Positions 4,916 through 22,345 of a stretch of DNA of 23,686 nt are shown here, one piece after another; the stretch's first letter is position 1, and each line of letters opens with the position of its first letter. Source of the stretch: Polyangiaceae bacterium (GTDB lineage Bacteria > Myxococcota > Polyangia > Polyangiales > Polyangiaceae); contig JAICTU010000078.1 of NCBI GenBank assembly GCA_025936205.1, forward strand, positions 1 to 23,686, written 5' to 3'. The position numbers were made by a program, and so were the translations under genes. The notes under the pieces were generated by a model. The model saw only the letters and a list, made by a program, of their open reading frames with translations. It was not told the DNA's origin and did no database searches.

Positions 4916-6154
4916 TCAGTGGCTGATGCCGAGCCAGGCGCCGCCCGACGCCAGCACGAACGCGATCGGGGTGAGGGCAAGCGCGAAGATCGCCGCGATG
5001 GGGGTTGTCACCGAGAGGAACAGCACCGCGATCACGACGGCCAGCGCGGCGCCGAGCGCGGGCTCCAGCACACTGCGCGTGCCGCTTGCTCGCGCGACCA
5101 GGTAGCCCGCCAGCGGGAACGCCAACCCCACCGCGACCGCCAGGAAGACCAGCGGACCATTCGAGCTCACGTCCGCTTCGTCCGCGGCCGCGAAGTCGAG
5201 CCCCAGCCAGTGGCCGGTGTAGAGCGCCACCCCGAGCGCGACGAGCCCGACCCCTGCCGTCACCAGTGTGCCCAGCGCAATCCAGTGCAGCATCAGCGGC
5301 GCCTGGCGCGGTTCCAGGACCTGCCAGATTTCCCGCAGGGACGGTGGCTCGGACCAGCCCGGGTGCGAGCTGCGCGGGCGATCGCTGCCCAAGCCCGCGG
5401 GGCGGATCGACGGTGGGCGCCGCGCAGCCTCTCTGGCGATCGCGCGCCGGGCAGCGGCATAGGCCAAGGCGAGCAGCGTGAGCAGCAAGGGCAGCGCCAG
5501 CACGAGCACGCCCGGGCCGCGACCGAACACGATGTGGTCGTAGAGGCCGCGCAGCGCGGTCGCGCTGGTCCAGGCCAGCGCAAACCAGCGCGTCTTGGCG
5601 CGCACGCCGAGGGTGGCGCCCCACAGGACCGCCGAAACCACGTGCGGCGGCACGGCGAGGACGGCGCGCAACACGCCCAGGGGATCGAGCACGCCGGCGT
5701 TGCCCGCGTCCAGGGTGCCGCTCAGTGCATCGACTGCGAGCGTATCCGTCGGCAGCGTGCCGAGCGCCAGCGCAACCGCCATCTTGCCGGCAGCGAAGCC
5801 CAGCCCGGCCACCGCCGAGAGCACGATGCCGTGGCGGATTTCCAGGATCCGTCGCGCCGAATACAGCGGCCAGATGCTGAGCACCTTGGCGCCCTCCTCG
5901 AGCGGGGCGGCGAACAGGAACATGGCGAGCAGGGCCTCGGATTCCTTGCCGGGCAGCGCGACCAGCGAGAGGCCTGTCCAGTTCCAGAGCGCCGTCTCGG
6001 CGAACTGGCAGCCGATGGCCAACAAGGCCGCGGCCAGACCGACGCCCAGCGCGCGCACCCAGGGGATTCCGCGTGCCGCCGGCAGCCGGCGCCAGGCCAG
6101 TGCCGCCAGCAACAGCGGCGCCAGGCCTACGCTCAGACCGAGGATGACCCGCAT
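4916..6154 (-). CDS. PrsW-like (CPBP/type II CAAX-like) intramembrane protease
   Basis: Predicted 412-residue polytopic membrane protein. PrsW-family metalloproteases cleave membrane substrates such as anti-sigma factors inside the bilayer. Motif 1 is present as E86-E87-x-x-K90 (PLEEGAKVL). Motif 3 has H171 (PHVVSAVLWG) and motif 4 has H207 (LYDHIVF). In motif 2 the usual F-A-x-x-E is GFAAGKM, so the expected Glu is Lys124. The core is followed by a cytoplasmic loop (about 235-285) and four or five extra hydrophobic segments. The gene lies 54 bases after the barrel gene at 6209 on the same strand, so the two may be co-transcribed. The family call rests on motif order and spacing. The motif 2 change may mean reduced or altered activity. 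A role in sigma-factor release is only inferred. Confidence 0.75.
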   Translation of the reverse strand: MRVILGLSVGLAPLLLAALAWRRLPAARGIPWVRALGVGLAAALLAIGCQFAETALWNWTGLSLVALPGKESEALLAMFLFAAPLEEGAKVLSIWPLYSARRILEIRHGIVLSAVAGLGFAAGKMAVALALGTLPTDTLAVDALSGTLDAGNAGVLDPLGVLRAVLAVPPHVVSAVLWGATLGVRAKTRWFALAWTSATALRGLYDHIVFGRGPGVLVLALPLLLTLLALAYAAARRAIAREAARRPPSIRPAGLGSDRPRSSHPGWSEPPSLREIWQVLEPRQAPLMLHWIALGTLVTAGVGLVALGVALYTGHWLGLDFAAADEADVSSNGPLVFLAVAVGLAFPLAGYLVARASGTRSVLEPALGAALAVVIAVLFLSVTTPIAAIFALALTPIAFVLASGGAWLGISH

Positions 6155-6202: not shown

Positions 6203-6219
6203 TGCATTTCAGAAATGCA
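6203..6219. repeat. Hairpin spanning the stop codon of the barrel gene
   Basis: TGCATTT (6203-6209) and AAATGCA (6213-6219) are perfectly complementary around a 3-base loop. On the minus strand this places the last Phe codon and the TGA inside a 7-bp hairpin. It may stabilise the 3' end or attenuate read-through into the protease gene. Confidence 0.6.
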
Positions 6220-7114
6220 AGCCCGCCACTGCGCTGATGCCGACGCCAAAGCCGACGCCGCTGCCATCTCGCGCATAGAGATCGGCCAGGCCCGCGACGT
6301 CGCTGCCGAGTCCGGCTTGGGGCGCCTTCGAGCGGGACAACACCAGCAGCTCCAGGCTGCTCTGCAGCCCGAGCGACAGCATCGGGTTCAGGTACCAGTC
6401 GAGGGCCGCGCCCAGCCGTGTGTCGAAACCGCTGATGTCCACGCGATCCGCATCAAAGCCCTGCGGCGCATGCTGTGGCTGGAAAGCCCCGAGCGATGCG
6501 TAGCCTGCGCTCAGCGTGAACGAAGGCTCCAGATCGCCCATGGGCAGGTGTAGGCCCAGCTCGCCGTTCAGGGTCCAGAGGTCCCACGCGCTTTGTCGCG
6601 CCATGCGAAAACGCGCGCCGATCGTCAGGAAAATCAGGCGTACACCGCCGCCCACCCCGAGCAGCAGCGCCGAGCCGCCATCGTCGATGACGCCGGCGTC
6701 CACCAGAGCGTTTCCGTGCAGATCGTCGAGCGAAAGGTACTCGTAGCCGGATTCCGCCTGGAACCACACGAACTCGAGTCCACGGCCCGCATCCTCGCGT
6801 TCGGCGCGATCGAGCTGGCGGTAGGTTTCCGCTTCGCCCGCGCTCGGGGGGGAGCTGCTCGAAGGCGGCGTCAGACCACCGCTCTGAAGTGGCGGATTCG
6901 CGGGGGGCGGGTAGCCCGGCTGGCTGCTGGGGTACGGACTGCTGGGGTACGGGCTGCCGGAAGATGGGCTGCTCGGGTACCGAGCCTGCGGATACGGGCC
7001 GCTCCCGTAGGCGGGAGCGCTGGGATTTTGTGCGTGAGCCGAGGGCTCGTGCAGGATCATCAGGATCGCTGCGATCGACCCCACGTACAGGAGGTGGCGC
7101 GAGCTCGGGGGCAT
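6209..7114 (-). CDS. Secreted outer-membrane beta-barrel protein with Pro/Ser/Tyr-rich linker
   Basis: Predicted 301-residue exported protein. From the ATG at 7114 it has a signal peptide ending SAHA|Q (about residue 29). A Pro/Ser/Tyr/Gly low-complexity stretch with PYPSS repeats follows to about residue 80. The C-terminal part alternates hydrophobic and polar residues with Gly/aromatic turns (for example SALLLGVGGGVRLIFLTIG and FTLSAGYASLGAF) and ends in Phe, as expected for a BAM-assembled outer-membrane barrel. The frame is open to 7438, but the signal peptide fixes the start at 7114. It is divergent from the heme-barrel gene at 7348 across 233 bases. No specific family is recognised. Confidence 0.75.
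   Translation of the reverse strand: MPPSSRHLLYVGSIAAILMILHEPSAHAQNPSAPAYGSGPYPQARYPSSPSSGSPYPSSPYPSSQPGYPPPANPPLQSGGLTPPSSSSPPSAGEAETYRQLDRAEREDAGRGLEFVWFQAESGYEYLSLDDLHGNALVDAGVIDDGGSALLLGVGGGVRLIFLTIGARFRMARQSAWDLWTLNGELGLHLPMGDLEPSFTLSAGYASLGAFQPQHAPQGFDADRVDISGFDTRLGAALDWYLNPMLSLGLQSSLELLVLSRSKAPQAGLGSDVAGLADLYARDGSGVGFGVGISAVAGLHF
6926..6955. repeat. Tandem 15-bp coding repeat (PYPSS units)
   Basis: Two adjacent 15-base units, GCTGGGGTACGGACT (6926-6940) and GCTGGGGTACGGGCT (6941-6955), differ at one base and are followed by degenerate copies. They encode the Pro-Tyr-Pro-Ser-Ser repeats of the barrel protein linker, a site prone to length change by slippage. Confidence 0.8.
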
Positions 7115-7347: not shown

Positions 7348-8556
7348 ATGCCACGCCTTCCGTTCCTGAAGGGCGCATGCTGGCTTTGGATTGTCGCCGT
7401 CGTCTCGCTGTCGAGCGGCCGCGCCCACGCCTATGCATGGATGATCAAGCACGGCTTCTCCAAATGCGGAAGCTGCCACACCGACCCTTCCGGCGGCGAG
7501 ACGCTGACGGCGTTCGGCCGCTATCAGAGTGAGCACTTTCTCACCATGGGCGGCGCCGACATGGAGGAGATGAGCAACTCCTCGAAGTTCCTGTTCGGCG
7601 CCATCAACGAGCCCAGCGACGTGAACCTGGGCGGTAGCTACCGTCACATGGTGCTGTACTCGGCCTCGGTGCCGGGCGTGCCGGCGGAGTGGCGGCAGTT
7701 TCCGATGCAGCTCGACGTGTACGGCTCGGGTCGCATCGGCAAGTTCGAGATCGGGGCGAGCCTCGGCGTCGCCAAGGGCATTCAGGGCAACGCCCAGGTG
7801 CGCGCGGCGGAGATCAACAAGGAGCCGGGGGAGGGCTTCATCGTCCTGAGCCGCAGCCACTACGTTGGGCTGTGGCTGCAAGACAACACGCTGCTGCGTG
7901 TCGGCCGCCTCAACCTGCCCTTCGGTGTGCGCATTCCGGAGCACACGCTCTGGGTGCGCGAGTCGACGCGCACCGATCGCGAATCGGATCAACAGCACGG
8001 TGCTTCGCTCACCTACACGGGTGGGCGCTGGCGCGTTGACTCGATGTTGATCCTCGGCAACTTTCAGCTCAACCCCGACCGCTACCGCGAGCGAGGCTAC
8101 GCGGCCACCATCGAGTACCTGCTGAACCCCACCCTGGCGGTGGGATTGAGCTCGCTGCTCACGCATTCACAAGTAGATTCGCTCACCCGTGTGCAGAACT
8201 CGATCCGCTACGCAGACGGCGTGCTCGTGCGTTGGGGCGCCAGCGAAAAAGTCTCCGTGCTGGGGGAGCTGGATCTGCTGAAAGAGGGCGGCCGTCACAC
8301 GGGCCTCACCGGCTTCGTGCAGACCGACTACGAGCCCTGGCAGGGCGTGCACTTGATGCTCACCGGCGAGGTGCTCGATCAAGGCCTGCTGGAGAAGCCC
8401 GGCGTATTGCCGGTGCGCGGCTCAGGGGCGCCCCGCTACGGGGCGTGGGTCGGCCTCGACTGGTATCCGGTCGAACACCTGGAGCTGCGCGTGGACGGCG
8501 TGATGCACCAGGATGACGTGTTTCACGGCCAAGCCCAGCTGCACCTGTATCTGTGA
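7348..8556 (+). CDS. Heme-binding (CxxCH) outer-membrane beta-barrel-like protein
   Basis: Predicted 402-residue exported protein. The signal peptide ends at about AHA28|Y29. Directly after it is one c-type heme motif, C40-G-S-C43-H44, in the sequence KHGFSKCGSCHTDPSGG. The remaining 330 or so residues look like an outer-membrane barrel: many short amphipathic strands such as GYAATIEYLLNPTLAVGLSS, frequent Tyr/Trp/Gly, and a final strand QAQLHLYL ending in Leu. The stretch VGRLNLPFGVRIPEHTLWVR is typical of porin-like strands. It lies 25 bases upstream of a small c-type cytochrome gene, which suggests joint function in electron transfer at the outer membrane (inference). There is no close match to MtrB/PioB, which are larger. 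The start is set by the signal peptide. Confidence 0.78.
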   Translation: MPRLPFLKGACWLWIVAVVSLSSGRAHAYAWMIKHGFSKCGSCHTDPSGGETLTAFGRYQSEHFLTMGGADMEEMSNSSKFLFGAINEPSDVNLGGSYRHMVLYSASVPGVPAEWRQFPMQLDVYGSGRIGKFEIGASLGVAKGIQGNAQVRAAEINKEPGEGFIVLSRSHYVGLWLQDNTLLRVGRLNLPFGVRIPEHTLWVRESTRTDRESDQQHGASLTYTGGRWRVDSMLILGNFQLNPDRYRERGYAATIEYLLNPTLAVGLSSLLTHSQVDSLTRVQNSIRYADGVLVRWGASEKVSVLGELDLLKEGGRHTGLTGFVQTDYEPWQGVHLMLTGEVLDQGLLEKPGVLPVRGSGAPRYGAWVGLDWYPVEHLELRVDGVMHQDDVFHGQAQLHLYL

Positions 8557-8568
8557 AGTGCTATTGCC

Positions 8569-8576
8569 GAGGAGGT
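8569..8576 (+). promoter_or_regulatory. Strong ribosome binding site deciding the GTG start at 8582
   Basis: GAGGAGGT lies 5 bases before GTG 8582. This and the signal peptide that begins there rule out the longer open frame starting at 8513 inside the previous gene. Confidence 0.75.
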
Positions 8577-8581
8577 CCCCC

Positions 8582-9073
8582 GTGCTGCGACGCCTACAGC
8601 TCTCGACTGCTCTCACGCTCGCGATCGCGAGCTGGCTCGGCTCCGCGAGTGCAACTCCCGAGTACCCCGGCGTGATCGACGCCACGCTGGGCGCCATGTG
8701 CGGTGAGCCCGCTTCGCGCTGCTTGATCTGCCATACCACGGCGCGCGGCGGGCAAGGCACCGCGGAGCAGCCGTTCGTGCGCCACCTGCGCACGCTCGGT
8801 TTGACGCACGGCCACGATGCGTCCGCACTGCGCAACGCGCTCAACCTGCTCGACGAGAACTGGGACTCCGACGGTGACACGGAGCCCGACAAGAAAGAGT
8901 TGCGCGAATGCGGCAACCCGAGCGGCGATGATCTCGGCGCGGGCCCGGTCTACGGCTGCGATGGCGCTCAGCTCGTGCCGAGTGCCGCGAGCCGTGAGGG
9001 CCGCAACCCCGCCGCAGCAGCGCTCGCGTTCGGTCTGGCGGCCCTGCTCGTACATTTCGCCCGGCGCCGCTGA
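8582..9073 (+). CDS. Small secreted c-type cytochrome with C-terminal membrane anchor
   Basis: Predicted 163-residue protein starting at GTG 8582. It has a signal peptide ending ASA24|T25, then one heme-attachment motif C47-L-I-C50-H51, a helical segment, and an Asp-rich stretch (NWDSDGDTEPDKKELRECG) that resembles calcium-binding thrombospondin type 3/EF-hand-like loops. The C-terminus is a hydrophobic helix (NPAAAALAFGLAALLVHF) followed by ARRR, the pattern of sorting-signal tails such as the CTERM families, although the Cys of MYXO-CTERM is absent. It probably follows the heme-barrel gene in one transcript (25-base gap). A periplasmic or surface electron carrier is the likely role. Confidence 0.78.
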   Translation: MLRRLQLSTALTLAIASWLGSASATPEYPGVIDATLGAMCGEPASRCLICHTTARGGQGTAEQPFVRHLRTLGLTHGHDASALRNALNLLDENWDSDGDTEPDKKELRECGNPSGDDLGAGPVYGCDGAQLVPSAASREGRNPAAAALAFGLAALLVHFARRR

Positions 9074-9627
9074 GCGGCGTTCACCCCGGAGGCTGAAGCA
9101 GCCACGCCTCGAGGACGCTCGCCTCGAGTCGATCCCGGAACTGAGGCCGCCGAGAGTTTCGAGCAGCTGGGTGAAGGCGCGTTTGCAAGCTCAGACTGAC
9201 AAGCGGCCTCGGCAGAAAGCTTCGTTCACGATGGATCGAGCTCGGCCTCGCGTTCTCCCGCTGTGCTGCAGTGATCTCGCGCAGCGCAGTTTCCGCGGAG
9301 AAATCACGCTCTCGGCACGATCTCCTCGAAACACTGCGATCCATCAGATCTGCGATTCACGAGGTTCCGACCCAGATTGCTCCGTCAAAGATGCGGCGTT
9401 TTCACCGACAGATCTTCAACGCTGTCGCGAGCGCTTTGTCTAAGCTTGCGGGCTAGAGCACTTCAGCTCACAGTATGAAACTCCAGCGGCTGACCTCTGT
9501 TGCAATCTGGCGCACGAAGAAATTGCGGGGACACCCCGCAGCCCGAGTCTGGGGCTTTACCCCGGGCGCGATTCGCTCCAGAAAGCTCATGCGAAGGCCG
9601 CGTTTCCCCGCCATCGATAGACTCGAC
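9074..9627. other. 554-base gene-free region
   Basis: No gene can be supported here. The base composition is visibly lower in G+C than in the flanking genes, and the short open frames lack domains or credible ribosome sites. It holds the palindrome at 9525-9539 and a GGGG-CTTTA-CCCC hairpin (9551-9563) in what is probably the leader of the lipoprotein gene at 9628. Confidence 0.55.
9525..9539. repeat. GCGGGGACACCCCGC palindrome, member of a repeated motif
   Basis: A perfect 6-bp inverted repeat with loop ACA, about 88 bases before the ATG at 9628. Near-identical palindromes occur at 3531-3545, 4796-4809 and, inside a coding region, 4490-4504. The 4796 and 9525 copies also share flanking bases (TTGC before; AGCCCG after). 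Confidence 0.7.
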
Positions 9628-10239
9628 ATGCAGAGTATTCTAACGACTTGCGCCATCATCGGCGCCCTGGGTTTGGCTGCGTGCGGTTCCCCGTCGGAGC
9701 TCGACGAGGACTCGTTCCCGAAGCTGGAGGAGACTGGCTACACGAATACGGCGAGCGGTGCGGGGGGGAGCACGGTCGTCGTGAGCGGCGGCGGCGGCGC
9801 CAGCGGCAGCGGCAACGTGGTCTCCACTGGCGGTAGCGCGCAGACCGGCGGCTCCAGTGCTGGTAGCGGCAGCACGGTGTCGACCGGCGCCAACGGCTGC
9901 CCCTCGGACATTAGCCAGTTGTTCAATCGCCCGAGCACTCAGGGTGGCTGTACCGCGAACGGCGGCTGCCACGACGGCGCCGTACCACCGGATCTCGTTT
10001 CGCCCAACGTGCTCTCGCGCCTGCTCAACGTGCCGTCCACCTGCAAGAAGACGTCGACCGGCATGTCGGTCCCGCCGCGGCCCTACATCGGCAAGGACGA
10101 CTCTTTCCTCGAGGAGAAGGTCGCCGGCAGCGTGAACCAGGAGTGCGGCGTCGCCATGCCGTTCTTCGCGACGCAGTCGCTGAGCGATGCCGATCGCAAG
10201 TGCATCGTCGCCTGGATCGACTCGGTGAAAGGCGGATGA
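9628..10239 (+). CDS. Lipoprotein with cytochrome c-like domain and abnormal heme motif
   Basis: Predicted 203-residue lipoprotein with lipobox L16-A-A-C19. A Gly/Ser/Thr-rich linker (about residues 40-90) precedes a globular domain that looks like the cytochrome c-like domains common in Myxococcota. It has a Cys-containing entry (GGCTANGGCHDG), a central region, and the closing pattern AMPFFATQSLSDADRKCIVAWIDS, which matches the distal Met-Pro and final helix of c-type cytochromes. However, the heme site reads C-x5-C-H instead of C-x2-C-H. Either heme is attached at a widened motif or it has been lost and the Cys residues form disulfides. The start at 9628 is fixed by the lipobox. Its TGA overlaps the next ATG, so the two genes are translationally coupled. 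Confidence 0.75.
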   Translation: MQSILTTCAIIGALGLAACGSPSELDEDSFPKLEETGYTNTASGAGGSTVVVSGGGGASGSGNVVSTGGSAQTGGSSAGSGSTVSTGANGCPSDISQLFNRPSTQGGCTANGGCHDGAVPPDLVSPNVLSRLLNVPSTCKKTSTGMSVPPRPYIGKDDSFLEEKVAGSVNQECGVAMPFFATQSLSDADRKCIVAWIDSVKGG

Positions 10240-18982: not shown

Positions 18983-19457
18983 AGCGCTTTTTTGAAGGTG
19001 TGGAGCTCTGCAGGGGGTCAATTTTTACCCTGCCTTCCAGGGCGCGAGGATTGATAAGGGCTGAGGACGGATAGCGTAGAATCATCACGGATGGGCTGAA
19101 TCAGCCTGGATCGAGCGTTCTAGCTTCGCTCGGAGTTCCCTGATTCGCTCTCGATGAGCCCGCGCGGGCAGGAATCACCCGGGGTATTTCTCGACCCCCC
19201 TGGGTCATATGTAGGGCGGTGCGGCGCCATCGACGACGCCACGAACACATGCGCGTCGGTTTGGGGCTGTGTTTGGGCTGGTTTGTAGGAGGAGCAGCGC
19301 GGAGGGCCTGCATTTTGGCTCGATGCCCGTCACCCCTTGAACGTACCCCTTCGGGAATGCCGACTCGCGCCGTTCAAATCCGGGTAACCAAAATCTGGTG
19401 CCCCCTGGTCCAAAGCCGAACGCTGGAACCAGCCGAGCGCCATCGAGAGCGAGAAAC

Positions 19458-20510
19458 ATGCGCGAAGGCAAGAATCTGATCGGGGTCGACATCGGCTCGA
19501 GCAGCATCAAGGTCTGCCAGGTTCGTGAGACCCGCAAGGCTTACAACCTGGTGGCGTTCGGGTACGCCCCGCTTCCTCCCCAGGCCATCGTCGACGGCCA
19601 GGTCATGGACGGCAACGCCGTGGCCGAAACCCTGCAACAGATCTGGCATTCCGCGAAGATCCGCCAGCGCGAAGTGAGCCTCGGAGTCTCGGGGCAATCG
19701 GCCATCATCCGCAAGATCACCATCCCGATGATGACGGCGGAAGAGCTGGAGGAGCAGATCCAGTGGGAAGCCGAGCAGCACATCCCCTTCGACATCAAGG
19801 ATGTGCACGTCGACTACCAGGTGCTGCGGCGCCACCCCGAGCAGAGCCAGATGGATCTGCTGCTCGTGGCCGCCAAGCGCGACCAGATCAACGACTACGC
19901 GCAGCTGGCGCGCGACGCGCGGCTCAAGCCCATCGTGTGCGACATCGACGCCTTCTCGATCCAGAACCTGTTCGAGCTCTCGCGTGGCCTGCCCCCGGAC
20001 CAGACCGTGGCGCTGATCAACGTAGGGGCGAACCTCACCTCGCTGAACATCATCTCGGGCGGCATCAGCGCCTTCACCCGCGAGATCGCCAACGGCGGGC
20101 ACGCCATCTCCGAGCAGATCCAGAAGCAGCTCGGGATCCCGTTTGATCTGGCCGAGTCCTACAAGTGCGGGACCGCCGATGGTCCTGCGCCGCCCCAGGT
20201 GGCCCAGATCATCGAGTCGACCAGCGACGGTATCGCGGCCGAGATCCAGCGCAGCCTGGACTTCTTCATGGCGACCAGCGGTGACGGCGAGATTTCCCGC
20301 ATCTACGTGACGGGCGGCTCCTCCAAGATCCCGTCGCTCTCGCAGGCCATCGAGCGGCGGGCGCGCGTGCCGGTGGAGGTCTGGGCGCCCACGGAGCGCC
20401 TCACCATCGACTCCAAGAAGGTGGATCTGGGCGTGCTTGGCGTGCGCGCTCCGCAGCTGGCGGTGGCCCTGGGCCTGGCGCTGCGCAAGGAGAGGGAGAT
20501 CCGGGCATGA
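19458..20510 (+). CDS. pilM: PilM, actin-like type IV pilus assembly ATPase-fold protein
   Basis: Predicted 350-residue cytoplasmic protein of the type IV pilus inner-membrane alignment complex; it binds the N-terminal tail of PilN. The FtsA/actin fold shows in GVDIGSSSIKVCQV (phosphate 1, residues 9-22), ALINVGANLTSLNIISGG (phosphate 2) and IYVTGGSSKIPSLSQAIERR (adenosine loop). The stretch EELEEQIQWEAEQHIPFDIK is a PilM hallmark. The start at 19458 directly precedes the conserved REGKNLIGVDIG; the frame back to 19398 has no ribosome site. Its TGA overlaps the pilN ATG. Confidence 0.95.
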   Translation: MREGKNLIGVDIGSSSIKVCQVRETRKAYNLVAFGYAPLPPQAIVDGQVMDGNAVAETLQQIWHSAKIRQREVSLGVSGQSAIIRKITIPMMTAEELEEQIQWEAEQHIPFDIKDVHVDYQVLRRHPEQSQMDLLLVAAKRDQINDYAQLARDARLKPIVCDIDAFSIQNLFELSRGLPPDQTVALINVGANLTSLNIISGGISAFTREIANGGHAISEQIQKQLGIPFDLAESYKCGTADGPAPPQVAQIIESTSDGIAAEIQRSLDFFMATSGDGEISRIYVTGGSSKIPSLSQAIERRARVPVEVWAPTERLTIDSKKVDLGVLGVRAPQLAVALGLALRKEREIRA

Positions 20511-21148
20511 TTCGCGTCAACCTTCTTCCCCAGAAGCGGCGCAAGGGCGGCGGCAGTGCGCGCGGCGAGCTGTGGCTCGTGGCGTGCCTGGTCTCGGTCG
20601 CCCTGGAAGTGGTCGGCTGCCTGGTGCTCTACGGGCAAAAGAAAGACGAGCTCAGCCAGCAGCTCGACAAGAACAAGGCTCTGGACGCCCAGATCAAGCA
20701 GATCAACGACGTCTCCAAGAACCACGAAGAGATCAAGGCGAAGCTGGCCGCGCTGCGCGACCGCGAGGAAGCCATCGCCAAGCTGCAGAGCGCGCGCAGC
20801 GGCCCCACCGCGATGTTGCTCGAGGTGGCGCGGCTGCTGACGCCGGGGCGCGGTCCCAGCGTCGACCCGAACGAGCTGTCCAAGGTGCGGCGCGAGAACC
20901 CGACCCAGGACTACAACGGCAACTGGGACCCGCGGCGCCTGTGGCTGACCCGGTTCGTCGAGCAGGACCGAACGGTCCGGCTCGAAGGCATGGCGCGCGA
21001 CGGTGAGGACGTGAGCGAGCTCGCGCGGCGCATGAACCTGTCGACGTATTTCAACGACGTGCAGCTGTTGCCCGCCAAGCGGGAGACGGAAAAGGTGAGC
21101 GGGCTGCCGATGGTGTCGTTCAAGCTCGAAGCCAAGGTGAGGTACTGA
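20507..21148 (+). CDS. pilN: PilN, type IV pilus inner-membrane assembly protein
   Basis: Predicted 213-residue bitopic protein. The extreme N-terminus MIRVNLLPQKRRK is the conserved INLLP tail that docks into PilM. One membrane segment (about 22-43) is followed by a periplasmic coiled coil (QLDKNKALDAQIKQINDVSK, continuing to about residue 95) and a ferredoxin-like C-terminal domain (VEQDRTVRLEGMARDGEDVS, VSFKLEAKVRY). It is longer than the usual 180-200 residues because of an insert after the coil (RLLTPGRGPSVDPNELSK, KVRRENPTQDYNGNWDPRRL), a feature seen in myxobacterial-type PilN with this kind of Gly-Asn-Trp-Asp loop (inference). Overlaps pilM by 4 bases. Confidence 0.93.
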   Translation: MIRVNLLPQKRRKGGGSARGELWLVACLVSVALEVVGCLVLYGQKKDELSQQLDKNKALDAQIKQINDVSKNHEEIKAKLAALRDREEAIAKLQSARSGPTAMLLEVARLLTPGRGPSVDPNELSKVRRENPTQDYNGNWDPRRLWLTRFVEQDRTVRLEGMARDGEDVSELARRMNLSTYFNDVQLLPAKRETEKVSGLPMVSFKLEAKVRY

Positions 21149-21149
21149 G

Positions 21150-21749
21150 ATGGCCATCAATCGTGGCACCCTGAGCCGCTTGGCGCTGCCGGCCAAGCTC
21201 GGGATCGGCGCGGGTGCGTTGGCGCTCGTAGGCGCTGGTTACTACTTCGTCTTCCACTCCGAGGTGGAGGAAGGCCTGACCAAGGCGCGCACCGCGAACA
21301 CGAAGTTGAACTCGGACCTGAGCAAGGCCCGGGCGGCGGAGCAGGCCTATCAAAAGGACCTCGCCGAGCTGGCGGATCGCGAGCAGCGCCAGAAGGAGCT
21401 GAACCAGATCTTGCCGGCCACTACCGAGTATCCGGCGTTCCTGAGCGCCGTGCAGTCGGCGGCCAACATCTCGGGCGTGAGCCTGGCCGCCTGGACCCCA
21501 CGCGAGAAGGTGCCGGAAAAGTACTACGCCAAGGTGCCGATGAAGGTCGAGCTCAGCGGCAAGTTCATGCAGATCGCGCGCTTCTTCTACAACGTCGGTC
21601 AGCTCGATCGGATCATCAACATGGAGAACATCTCCATGACCGACCCACGGTTGGTCGACGACGAAATGGTACTGAAGACGGAAGCGCTGGCGACGGCGTT
21701 CCACGTCGTGGAAGACAAGCCGGCAGCCGGCGAGAGCGGAGGCAAGTGA
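21150..21749 (+). CDS. pilO: PilO, type IV pilus inner-membrane assembly protein
   Basis: Predicted 199-residue bitopic protein that pairs with PilN in the periplasm. One membrane segment (about 15-35) precedes a coiled coil (EEGLTKARTANTKLNSDLSK, to about residue 80), the PilO signature KELNQILPATTEYPAFLSAV, and a ferredoxin-like domain (KVPMKVELSGKFMQIARFFY, LDRIINMENISM). It starts one base after the pilN stop and its TGA overlaps the pilP GTG, so all four pil genes are one transcript. Confidence 0.94.
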   Translation: MAINRGTLSRLALPAKLGIGAGALALVGAGYYFVFHSEVEEGLTKARTANTKLNSDLSKARAAEQAYQKDLAELADREQRQKELNQILPATTEYPAFLSAVQSAANISGVSLAAWTPREKVPEKYYAKVPMKVELSGKFMQIARFFYNVGQLDRIINMENISMTDPRLVDDEMVLKTEALATAFHVVEDKPAAGESGGK

Positions 21750-22345
21750 GCGTGCGCCCCCTCTTTTGGATCGTGTGCGGCGCGCTGGCAGTCTCCAGCG
21801 TCGCTTGCGGTGGTGATCAGCCAGCCGAGAAGAAGCCGGCTGCGAAGGCGGGCGGCGCGAAGACGCGGGCCTCCGCCAAGGCGGGTAGCGCCGCGCCGGA
21901 GAAGACAGTGGCGCCGGTGGGACCGCCCATCGACTTCAACGACAGCTCCAACCTGCGCGACCCGTTCCTGTCGTACGCGCGCGAGTTCGCCGAGGAGGCG
22001 AAGAAGCGCGTGCGATCGCAGCGCGATGTGGTGCTCGACCAGTACGGTCTGGATGAGCTCAAGCTGGCCGGGCTAGTCACGGGCATTCGCCCCGCGCGCG
22101 CCATGTTGATCGACCCCACGAAGAAGGGGCACGTCGTACACGAAGGGCAGTTCGTGGGGCGCGCGGAGGTCGTGCAGGGTGGCGCTTCCGGAGCGGACTA
22201 CGAGATCAACTGGCGTGTCGATCGCATCCGCGACTCCGACATCGTGCTGGTGCGCGAGGATCCCTCGAACCCCGACGTGCCGAGCGCCACGCGCGTGATC
22301 CCGCTGCGTCCCGACGAGATGGTGGCGGCCGCGACGACGCGCTGA
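21746..22345 (+). CDS. pilP: PilP, type IV pilus inner-membrane lipoprotein
   Basis: Predicted 199-residue lipoprotein with lipobox S18-V-A-C21, linking PilNO to the PilQ secretin. A Lys/Ala-rich disordered segment (about 25-60) precedes the RDPFLSYA motif and the PilP beta-domain (DQYGLDELKLAGLVTGIRPA, AMLIDPTKKGHVVHEGQFVG, DSDIVLVREDP). GGAGG (21738-21742) is only 3 bases from GTG 21746 but 9 from the in-frame GTG at 21752, so the shorter start is possible; the lipobox is unaffected. pilQ would be expected next but is absent. Confidence 0.93.
   Translation: MSVRPLFWIVCGALAVSSVACGGDQPAEKKPAAKAGGAKTRASAKAGSAAPEKTVAPVGPPIDFNDSSNLRDPFLSYAREFAEEAKKRVRSQRDVVLDQYGLDELKLAGLVTGIRPARAMLIDPTKKGHVVHEGQFVGRAEVVQGGASGADYEINWRVDRIRDSDIVLVREDPSNPDVPSATRVIPLRPDEMVAAATTR

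Follow-up and report, generated by a model that had tools for sequence, protein, structure and literature searches.

A candidate myxobacterial heme-porin related to Cyc2 and its conserved partner cytochrome

Two adjacent genes on contig JAICTU010000078.1 of a Polyangiaceae bacterium (assembly GCA_025936205.1, positions 1 to 23,686; this whole 23.7-kb stretch is the window) raise the question of what a barrel-like protein with one heme site does beside a small, seemingly anchored c-type cytochrome. The original prediction, made from the DNA letters, was that the two gene products may form a minimal outer-membrane electron conduit. This is still the best reading. In our view, the first protein (P0001) is probably a member of a myxobacterial lineage that is sister to Cyc2, and probably forms such a conduit with the second (P0002). 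The prediction further took a heme on a barrel to be unusual, on the ground that the heme proteins of known conduits are separate and multiheme. This was wrong, and the claimed novelty of a fused heme-barrel falls with it: a monoheme cytochrome fused to a porin is already established in Cyc2, whose oxidation of Fe(II) has been demonstrated. In Mariprofundus, Cyc2 was located in the outer-membrane fraction, and it oxidised Fe(II) (passages of PMC8406198). The novelty lies instead in a separate lineage that has a conserved, apparently tail-anchored partner of its own.

The heme site of P0001 and its spacing

The features of P0001 are as follows.
7348..8556, forward strand: P0001, fused monoheme cytochrome/porin-type protein of 402 residues (open reading frame, translation, 1383 homologs, profile chain)
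7348..7431, forward strand: signal peptide, predicted cleavage between A28 and Y29 (A-x-A site, by eye; alanine column counts)
7432..7521, forward strand: short N-terminal heme segment YAWMIKHGFSKCGSCHTDPSGGETLTAFGR, the predicted mature start (invariant residues in 46 aligned sequences)
7465..7479, forward strand: heme-attachment motif CGSCH (CxxCH; translation, homolog conservation, scan of window open reading frames)
7570..8553, forward strand: putative porin-type beta-barrel region, left edge approximate (Pfam on family members; hhalign)
7903..8001, forward strand: strongly conserved barrel stretch GRLNLPFGVRIPEHTLWVRESTRTDRESDQQHG (residues 186-218, many invariant columns; aligns to GHFVMPYGLRLADHTAFIRE of locus L112)

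The basic layout is as predicted: coordinates, a length of 402 residues, a single CxxCH (C40-G-S-C43-H44) and a 25-nt gap between the stop codon and a GTG-started frame of 163 residues. Among the open reading frames (ORFs) of at least 90 residues in the window, only P0001 and its neighbour P0002 contain CxxCH (the P0002 frame being counted from an in-frame ATG at 8513). Since these two adjoin each other, the pair is not attributable to chance. Both are monoheme, and a multiheme cytochrome is absent from the same set of ORFs. No site on the forward strand came up in a scan for promoters and terminators.

A search of 5.8 billion proteins with P0001 retrieved 1383 homologs. The best 120 of these were listed, and 113 have the CxxCH; the other seven (262-347 residues) lack the N-terminus. 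Loss of the motif from most homologs, which the original prediction had named as speaking against it, was thus not seen among these 120. The residues A28, Y29, W31, M32, C40, C43, H44, D46, G49, G50, L53, G57 and R58 are invariant over 46 aligned sequences. The signal peptide ends in A-H-A, and the protein itself ends in QLHLYL.

Scanning 84,980 species genomes gave 37 loci of the P0001 type, mostly from Polyangiaceae, Myxococcales, Myxococcaceae or unplaced Deltaproteobacteria and Proteobacteria. All but one come from metagenome-assembled genomes (MAGs; 36 of 37); Minicystis rosea DSM 24000 (locus L025) is the one cultured strain. The window most resembles a Polyangiaceae MAG: the homolog at its locus L001 is 82% identical to P0001, and matches to 10 of 16 further window genes lie in the 13.2 kb of this locus. 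Of 282 genomes drawn from the phylum, 66 have a match to the P0001 family at E<=0.001, among them 37 at E<1e-70. These counts are lower bounds, as at most six candidates per genome were scored (at most five for the Cyc2-like profile used below). Among the more divergent matches, four further heme-porin groups (S, D, X and M) were recognised. They were compared with myxobacterial Cyc2-type proteins (group Y; 20 loci, of which 15 are in the profiles and 14 in the tree) and with a Cyc2-like set (group C); the P0001 family itself (76 rows) is called F.

Paralogues of heme-porins are common. At least eight of 33 genomes (G001, G013, G014, G018, G022, G023, G025, G031) have profile matches at two or more separate places, some of them partial; in several other cases, two rows stem from a single split gene.

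Single-sequence searches with P0001 gave no match in Pfam, NCBIfam or a plasmid tblastn, and the best sequence match in PDB was at E 1.1. Using the P0001 alignment, a PDB search returned only chance-level cytochromes around the CxxCH (best 0.27).

The heme motif does not lie immediately behind the signal peptide, as had been stated, but 11 residues past the predicted A-H-A site, and this distance is highly conserved. Spacing was scored in 104 listed members and 30 loci members, leaving out 17 of 121 listed (no heme or too short an N-terminus) and 1 of 31 loci members. Ala occupies position -12 from the first heme Cys in all of them (104/104 and 30/30). At position -14, Ala is found in 100 of the 104 listed and in all 30 loci members, and Ala, Ser or Gly in 104/104. 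The Cyc2-like set behaves similarly (Ala at -12 in 114 of 118; Ala, Ser or Val at -14 in 118). These alanine columns are a cleaner measure than a crude signal-site predictor written for this study, which placed 11 residues between cleavage and heme for 81 of the 104 listed members and 28 of the 30 from the loci (9-18 residues in the others). The same predictor gave 11 residues in X (3/4), M (4/4), D (9/11) and Y (14/20), and 12 in S (6/7). In the P0002 family, which served as a control, 21-28 residues separate cleavage site and heme (108 of 113 scored).

Apart from the CxxCH, the heme segment has no conserved residue able to ligate iron across all groups. For this reason, we propose that the sixth ligand of the P0001 heme may be the amine of the mature N-terminus (Tyr29). 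There is precedent in cytochrome f, where the amine of an N-terminal Tyr is a heme ligand (passages of PMC6616624). Within the P0001 family, Met32 is a rival ligand: Met occupies this column in 102 of the 104 listed members that could be scored and in 29 of the 30 from the loci, but the Cyc2-like set has Phe or Tyr there (118/118).

The partner cytochrome P0002

The features of the second gene are as follows.
8570..8575, forward strand: AGGAGG, resembling a ribosome-binding site, 5' of the P0002 gene (sequence)
8582..9073, forward strand: P0002, monoheme partner cytochrome of 163 residues, GTG start (112 homologs; downstream in 28 of 35 loci)
8720..8734, forward strand: heme motif CLICH (C47, C50 and H51 invariant in 68 aligned members)
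8864..8899, forward strand: acidic loop DSDGDTEPDKKE, a putative calcium-binding loop of EF-hand-like pattern (D103 invariant; D95, D97, D99 and E106 in at least 90% of 68 members)
8951..9070, forward strand: Y-G-C, hydrophobic segment and Arg tail, a putative sorting or anchor signal resembling MYXO-CTERM (YGC invariant in 68 members)

Conservation of the neighbour gene bears out the proposed pairing. Among the 35 loci with downstream DNA, 28 have a partner frame on the same strand (one CxxCH plus the tripartite tail, ending within 1.3 kb past the stop codon). Its possible starts lie mostly no more than a few tens of bases from the stop of the P0001 homolog or overlap it. An independent tblastn with the P0002 family matched 28 of the 37 loci. 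At one locus (L019:7352-8448), two tandem partner cytochrome genes follow a single heme-porin gene.

The invariant residues of 68 aligned family members are P29, C47, C50, H51, D103, P113 and Y124-G125-C126. The claim that P0002 is anchored is supported by the sequence of its C-terminus: according to a rule written for this study, 111 of 113 members end in a Cys, a predicted transmembrane helix and an Arg/Lys tail, as compared to 0/120 in each of two control sets. This tail resembles MYXO-CTERM, for which an invariant Cys, a transmembrane helix and an Arg-rich end leading to cell-surface display are described (passages of PMC11980579). P0002 shares the C-terminal Cys, hydrophobic helix and Arg tail with surface proteins of the TraA type. 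Its score of 14.2 bits, however, stays below the curated cut-off of 20 for the hidden Markov model TIGR03901, so that we speak of resemblance and not of membership. At E<=0.1, TIGR03901 matches nine of the 68 family members and TIGR03382 one. The NCBIfam model for the GEGP diheme protein matches 51 of 68 (E<=0.1, best 5.9e-7), which is a weak likeness; P0002 itself obtains 13.1 bits against a cut-off of 300.

From these features, a mode of action can be sketched. P0001 would form a porin-type barrel in the outer membrane, and its mature N-terminus would hold one covalent c-type heme in or just under the pore. By analogy to the Cyc2 model in passages of PMC8406198, the heme may sit at or in the pore mouth, where a small reduced solute could arrive through the pore. 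The electron would be exchanged with a partner located in the periplasm or at the surface. Electrons would cross the outer membrane singly, in one or the other direction, linking the pool of periplasmic cytochromes with a small redox partner outside the cell, which may be Fe(II)-like or some other reduced solute. Gene order makes P0002 the obvious candidate for the electron partner, and co-transcription of the two genes is probable. With a tail processed as in MYXO-CTERM, P0002 would be outside and would provide an external docking heme; with an unprocessed tail, it would be held in the inner membrane and face the periplasm.

P0002 may never reach the surface and may be a periplasm-facing acceptor with a tail anchor in the inner membrane, as Cyc1 is for Cyc2. 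The locus would then have the ordinary Cyc2-Cyc1 arrangement, built from other parts. We lean against this, but it is a serious possibility. Consistent with it are the low TIGR03901 score and the few family members matched, as well as the distance of about 17 residues from the Cys to the hydrophobic segment; Cyc1/Cyc41, whose gene lies 3' of that for Cyc2, has been described as a periplasmic protein (passages of PMC10879576). The invariant YGC and the nearly universal tripartite tail argue against it, as an invariant Cys would be needless in an uncleaved inner-membrane anchor. In addition, the spacing between Cys and helix in TraA, as counted in the sequence shown in PMC11980579, is of similar length to that in P0002.

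It is tempting to combine the two proposals into a two-heme surface conduit of a new layout. P0002, with its calcium loop, would be lipid-anchored and displayed via MYXO-CTERM and the type II secretion system, and would dock on a heme-porin which has the Tyr29 amine as sixth ligand, as in cytochrome f, set by signal peptidase cleavage. A ligand that is set by cleavage would explain why the 11-residue spacing is locked in P0001 homologs and most Cyc2-like proteins alike, even though their barrels have diverged. As a whole, this layout is speculative and rather unlikely.

Barrel ancestry and relation to Cyc2

The barrel-like character of P0001 is backed by profile homology to porins. In Pfam searches with 46 single members (E<=0.1), BBP2 was matched by five (best 2.9e-4) and Porin_O_P by three (best 1.6e-3), and P0001 itself had no match. 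Profiles were compared by hhalign with 14 PF07396 porins and 23 BBP2 (PF07642) proteins. Family F matched the BBP2 set at 2.9e-6 over 292 columns. X matched the PF07396 porins at 1.6e-9 and BBP2 at 3.9e-6, and Y matched PF07396 at 3.5e-10; five reversed-sequence controls gave 0.03-0.44. Eleven aligned PF07396 proteins match OprP (2o4v) at 3.9e-48 and also OprO. Through the intermediates, this points to common ancestry with the OprP/OprO-type phosphate-selective porins and with BBP2, and P0001 would accordingly be expected to close into a barrel. A crude count of amphipathic strands separates poorly from shuffled sequences and is given no weight (family profile: 14 versus 10.2 +/- 2.4, threshold 0.7; P0001 alone: 10 versus 3.7 +/- 1.8, threshold 1.2).

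The porin relationship also permits another interpretation. P0001 might be a solute-specific porin, with the heme acting as a redox sensor or plug and not as an electron relay. Its barrel is related to OprP-type porins and BBP2, and the many Arg, His and Asp residues of its most conserved stretch could form the lining of a selective pore. Unlike P0001, none of the 37 compared porins has a CxxCH, and the conserved pairing with a second cytochrome, which recurs in some sister lineages, points to electron transfer. We thus regard a sensor or plug as unlikely.

Cyc2 is defined by AxPxFAR[QK][TY] before the CxxCH, a motif called unique to Cyc2, and by PxL after it, and it was modelled as a 16-stranded porin like OprO/OprP (passages of PMC8406198). 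P0001 has the same layout (signal peptide, single N-terminal CxxCH, porin-type domain, the latter related to porins by profiles only) and, with 402 residues, exceeds the minimum of 365 in the FeGenie rule. Cyc2 from A. ferrooxidans and Mariprofundus PV-1 shares with it the signal peptide, a CxxCH near the cleavage site (11 residues in most Cyc2-like proteins), the length of more than 365 residues and, according to the literature passages, the OprP/OprO-type porin, which is predicted for P0001. A cytochrome gene often adjoins in both cases, and in rus operons cyc2 is followed by the cytochrome gene cyc1 (passages of PMC10654088). The partner of Cyc2 is a periplasmic cytochrome, whereas that of P0001 is a monoheme protein with a Cys-helix-Arg tail.

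The sequence around the heme differs. In the P0001 family, the two Cyc2 motifs are replaced by AY.WM[IL][KR]HG...C..CH.DPSGG..LT..GR. In P0001, TDPSGGETL follows the CGSCH, so that the PxL four residues after the CxxCH is absent. Among the 104 scorable members, Pro is found at -10 in 17, Met at -8 in 102 and Lys or Arg at -6 in 104. In set Y, 14 of 15 have AxPxFAR and seven of 15 the full motif with [QK]Y; in set C, Arg is found at -6 in only 23 of 118. The other groups have heme segments of their own: AYPQFQFSSGTNRCNQCH... in S, two hemes (...CDTCH...CxGCHVSPxGGG) in D, ALPRFAARNG..C..CHV.PSGGG.R in X and ALPRMTL.AGSRCSNCHVNPQG.G in M.

The X proteins (L112, L136, L137, L138) link the P0001 family to Cyc2-type proteins. 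F matches X at 6.9e-31 over 333 columns (barrel alone 6.7e-24), X matches Y at 8.4e-13 over 326 columns (barrel alone 1.6e-6), and Y matches C at 8.1e-20; seven reversed-sequence controls along this chain gave 0.08-0.53. When the P0001 alignment was compared with the four X proteins, signal peptides included, the match was 3.7e-28 over 356 columns, with GRLNLPFGVRIPEHTLWVRE aligned to GHFVMPYGLRLADHTAFIRE. Common ancestry of P0001 with Cyc2-type proteins, as judged from these profiles, thus becomes visible through intermediates, also for the barrel.

A quick maximum-likelihood tree of 73 rows places F as one clade (Shimodaira-Hasegawa-like approximate likelihood ratio test, SH-aLRT, 100%), which has S as its sister (99); D, X and M lie on this side of the tree as well. 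All 26 Cyc2-type rows lie beyond a branch with 99% support, and P0001 thus does not fall among them; X and Y are not single clades. The tree is midpoint-rooted, its barrels are poorly aligned, and it includes no verified Cyc2.

It is very unlikely that P0001 is a drifted Cyc2 orthologue and Fe(II) oxidase: architecture, length and spacing are the same and the phylum does contain relatives of Cyc2 type (the Cyc2-like profile finds a match in 38 of 282 genomes, though in at least two, G116 and G178, only through an intermediate X protein), but its clade is separate, the Cyc2 motif is lacking, and 11 of the 37 genomes with a strong match to the P0001 family have a Cyc2-profile match at another place, so that the two look like paralogous systems.

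Gene pairing was also inspected in the relatives. A CxxCH ORF adjoins the heme-porin gene in X (4/4; diheme, downstream), S (7/7) and D (5/9), and a c-type cytochrome gene lies 3' of six of the seven plasmid Cyc2-like genes that were fetched (seven of nine matches).

Several results weigh against a sister lineage of Cyc2 that acts as a conduit. In the DNA examined, which for the 20 myxobacterial Cyc2-type loci covered about 1.5 kb to either side, a second CxxCH ORF was found in only two of these and in none of four M loci. Cytochrome pairing is thus not general among heme-porin relatives, and our confidence is slightly lowered because these Y and M counts speak against a general rule. Within the P0001 family, the partner is missing in seven of 35 loci (L003, L011, L014, L018, L024, L027, L034); L011 and L014 are from the same MAG as L001, and L024 and L034 share one MAG. 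In Pfam searches, ten divergent members showed no porin family except OMP_b-brl in one (0.062). Several porin comparisons are weak: F directly with the PF07396 porins (0.004), Y with BBP2 (0.0006), and S, D, M and C with either porin set (0.0008 to 0.14). Direct comparisons of F with Y and with C gave about 3e-4, and 0.34 and 0.43 for the barrel only; M compared with Y or C gave about 5e-4. The P0001 alignment matched five plasmid-borne Cyc2-like proteins at 6.3e-6, over 48 columns at the N-terminus only, including the signal peptide; in Pfam, no porin match was found for these five. AxPxFAR[QK][TY] is absent upstream of the CxxCH in P0001, which has AYAWMIKHG, and no verified iron oxidase is among the Cyc2-like comparators.

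MtrCAB, MtoAB and PioAB have the role which is proposed here for P0001, electron transfer across the outer membrane (passages of PMC10654088). P0001 differs by having its heme within the barrel polypeptide, with no separate multiheme cytochrome in the window.

Among the titles retrieved in literature searches, which mostly covered freely accessible papers, none concerned the P0001 family. In the literature examined, fused heme-porins are discussed so far as Cyc2 iron oxidases. The P0001 family, from mostly uncultured myxobacteria, and the further heme-porin lineages (one of them diheme) suggest that such fusions form a wider class, which has partners of its own and may have other substrates. 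Searches which require the Cyc2 motif would miss the P0001 family. If the P0002 tail mediates surface display, both faces of the conduit would be encoded by two small genes.

Further observations concern the D and X groups. The D-type diheme heme-porins (L102-L106, L108-L110 and L113; also L101 and L139) are apparently a further uncharacterised lineage. In four of nine (L102, L105, L109, L110), a CxxCH ORF lies directly upstream, in L103 downstream; in L139, it is also upstream. Each X gene is followed by a diheme cytochrome ORF, and a single-sequence plasmid search with L112 gave no match. The X profile matched the multiheme cytochrome 6qvm at 0.0019, but this was set aside, as the alignment covers mainly the signal peptide and the CxxCH. 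This cytochrome is presumably OmhA of Carboxydothermus; a search of PMC7829351 for axial ligands or coordination found no mention of them.

Neighbouring genes

Downstream of the pair, the product of 9475-10239 (forward strand) is predicted, from a LAAC lipobox seen by eye, to be a lipoprotein. It has the non-canonical motif C-x5-CH (CTANGGCH) and a weak C-terminal match to cytochrome cbb3 (E 0.083), and could be a third redox component. A homolog is found near the pair in L001 (46% identity) and in none of the other 36 of the 37 loci.

Upstream, 6209-7111 (reverse strand) codes for a divergent 300-residue protein which, by eye, has a Pro-rich N-terminus and a barrel-like C-terminus; it has no Pfam match, and homologs occur in nine of the 37 heme-porin loci. 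It is followed by a PrsW-family intramembrane protease (4916-6154, reverse strand; PF13367, E 1.7e-15), with homologs in eight of the 37. Farther away, 19398-22345 (forward strand) contains the type IV pilus assembly genes pilM and pilN and then ORFs that resemble pilO and pilP by eye.

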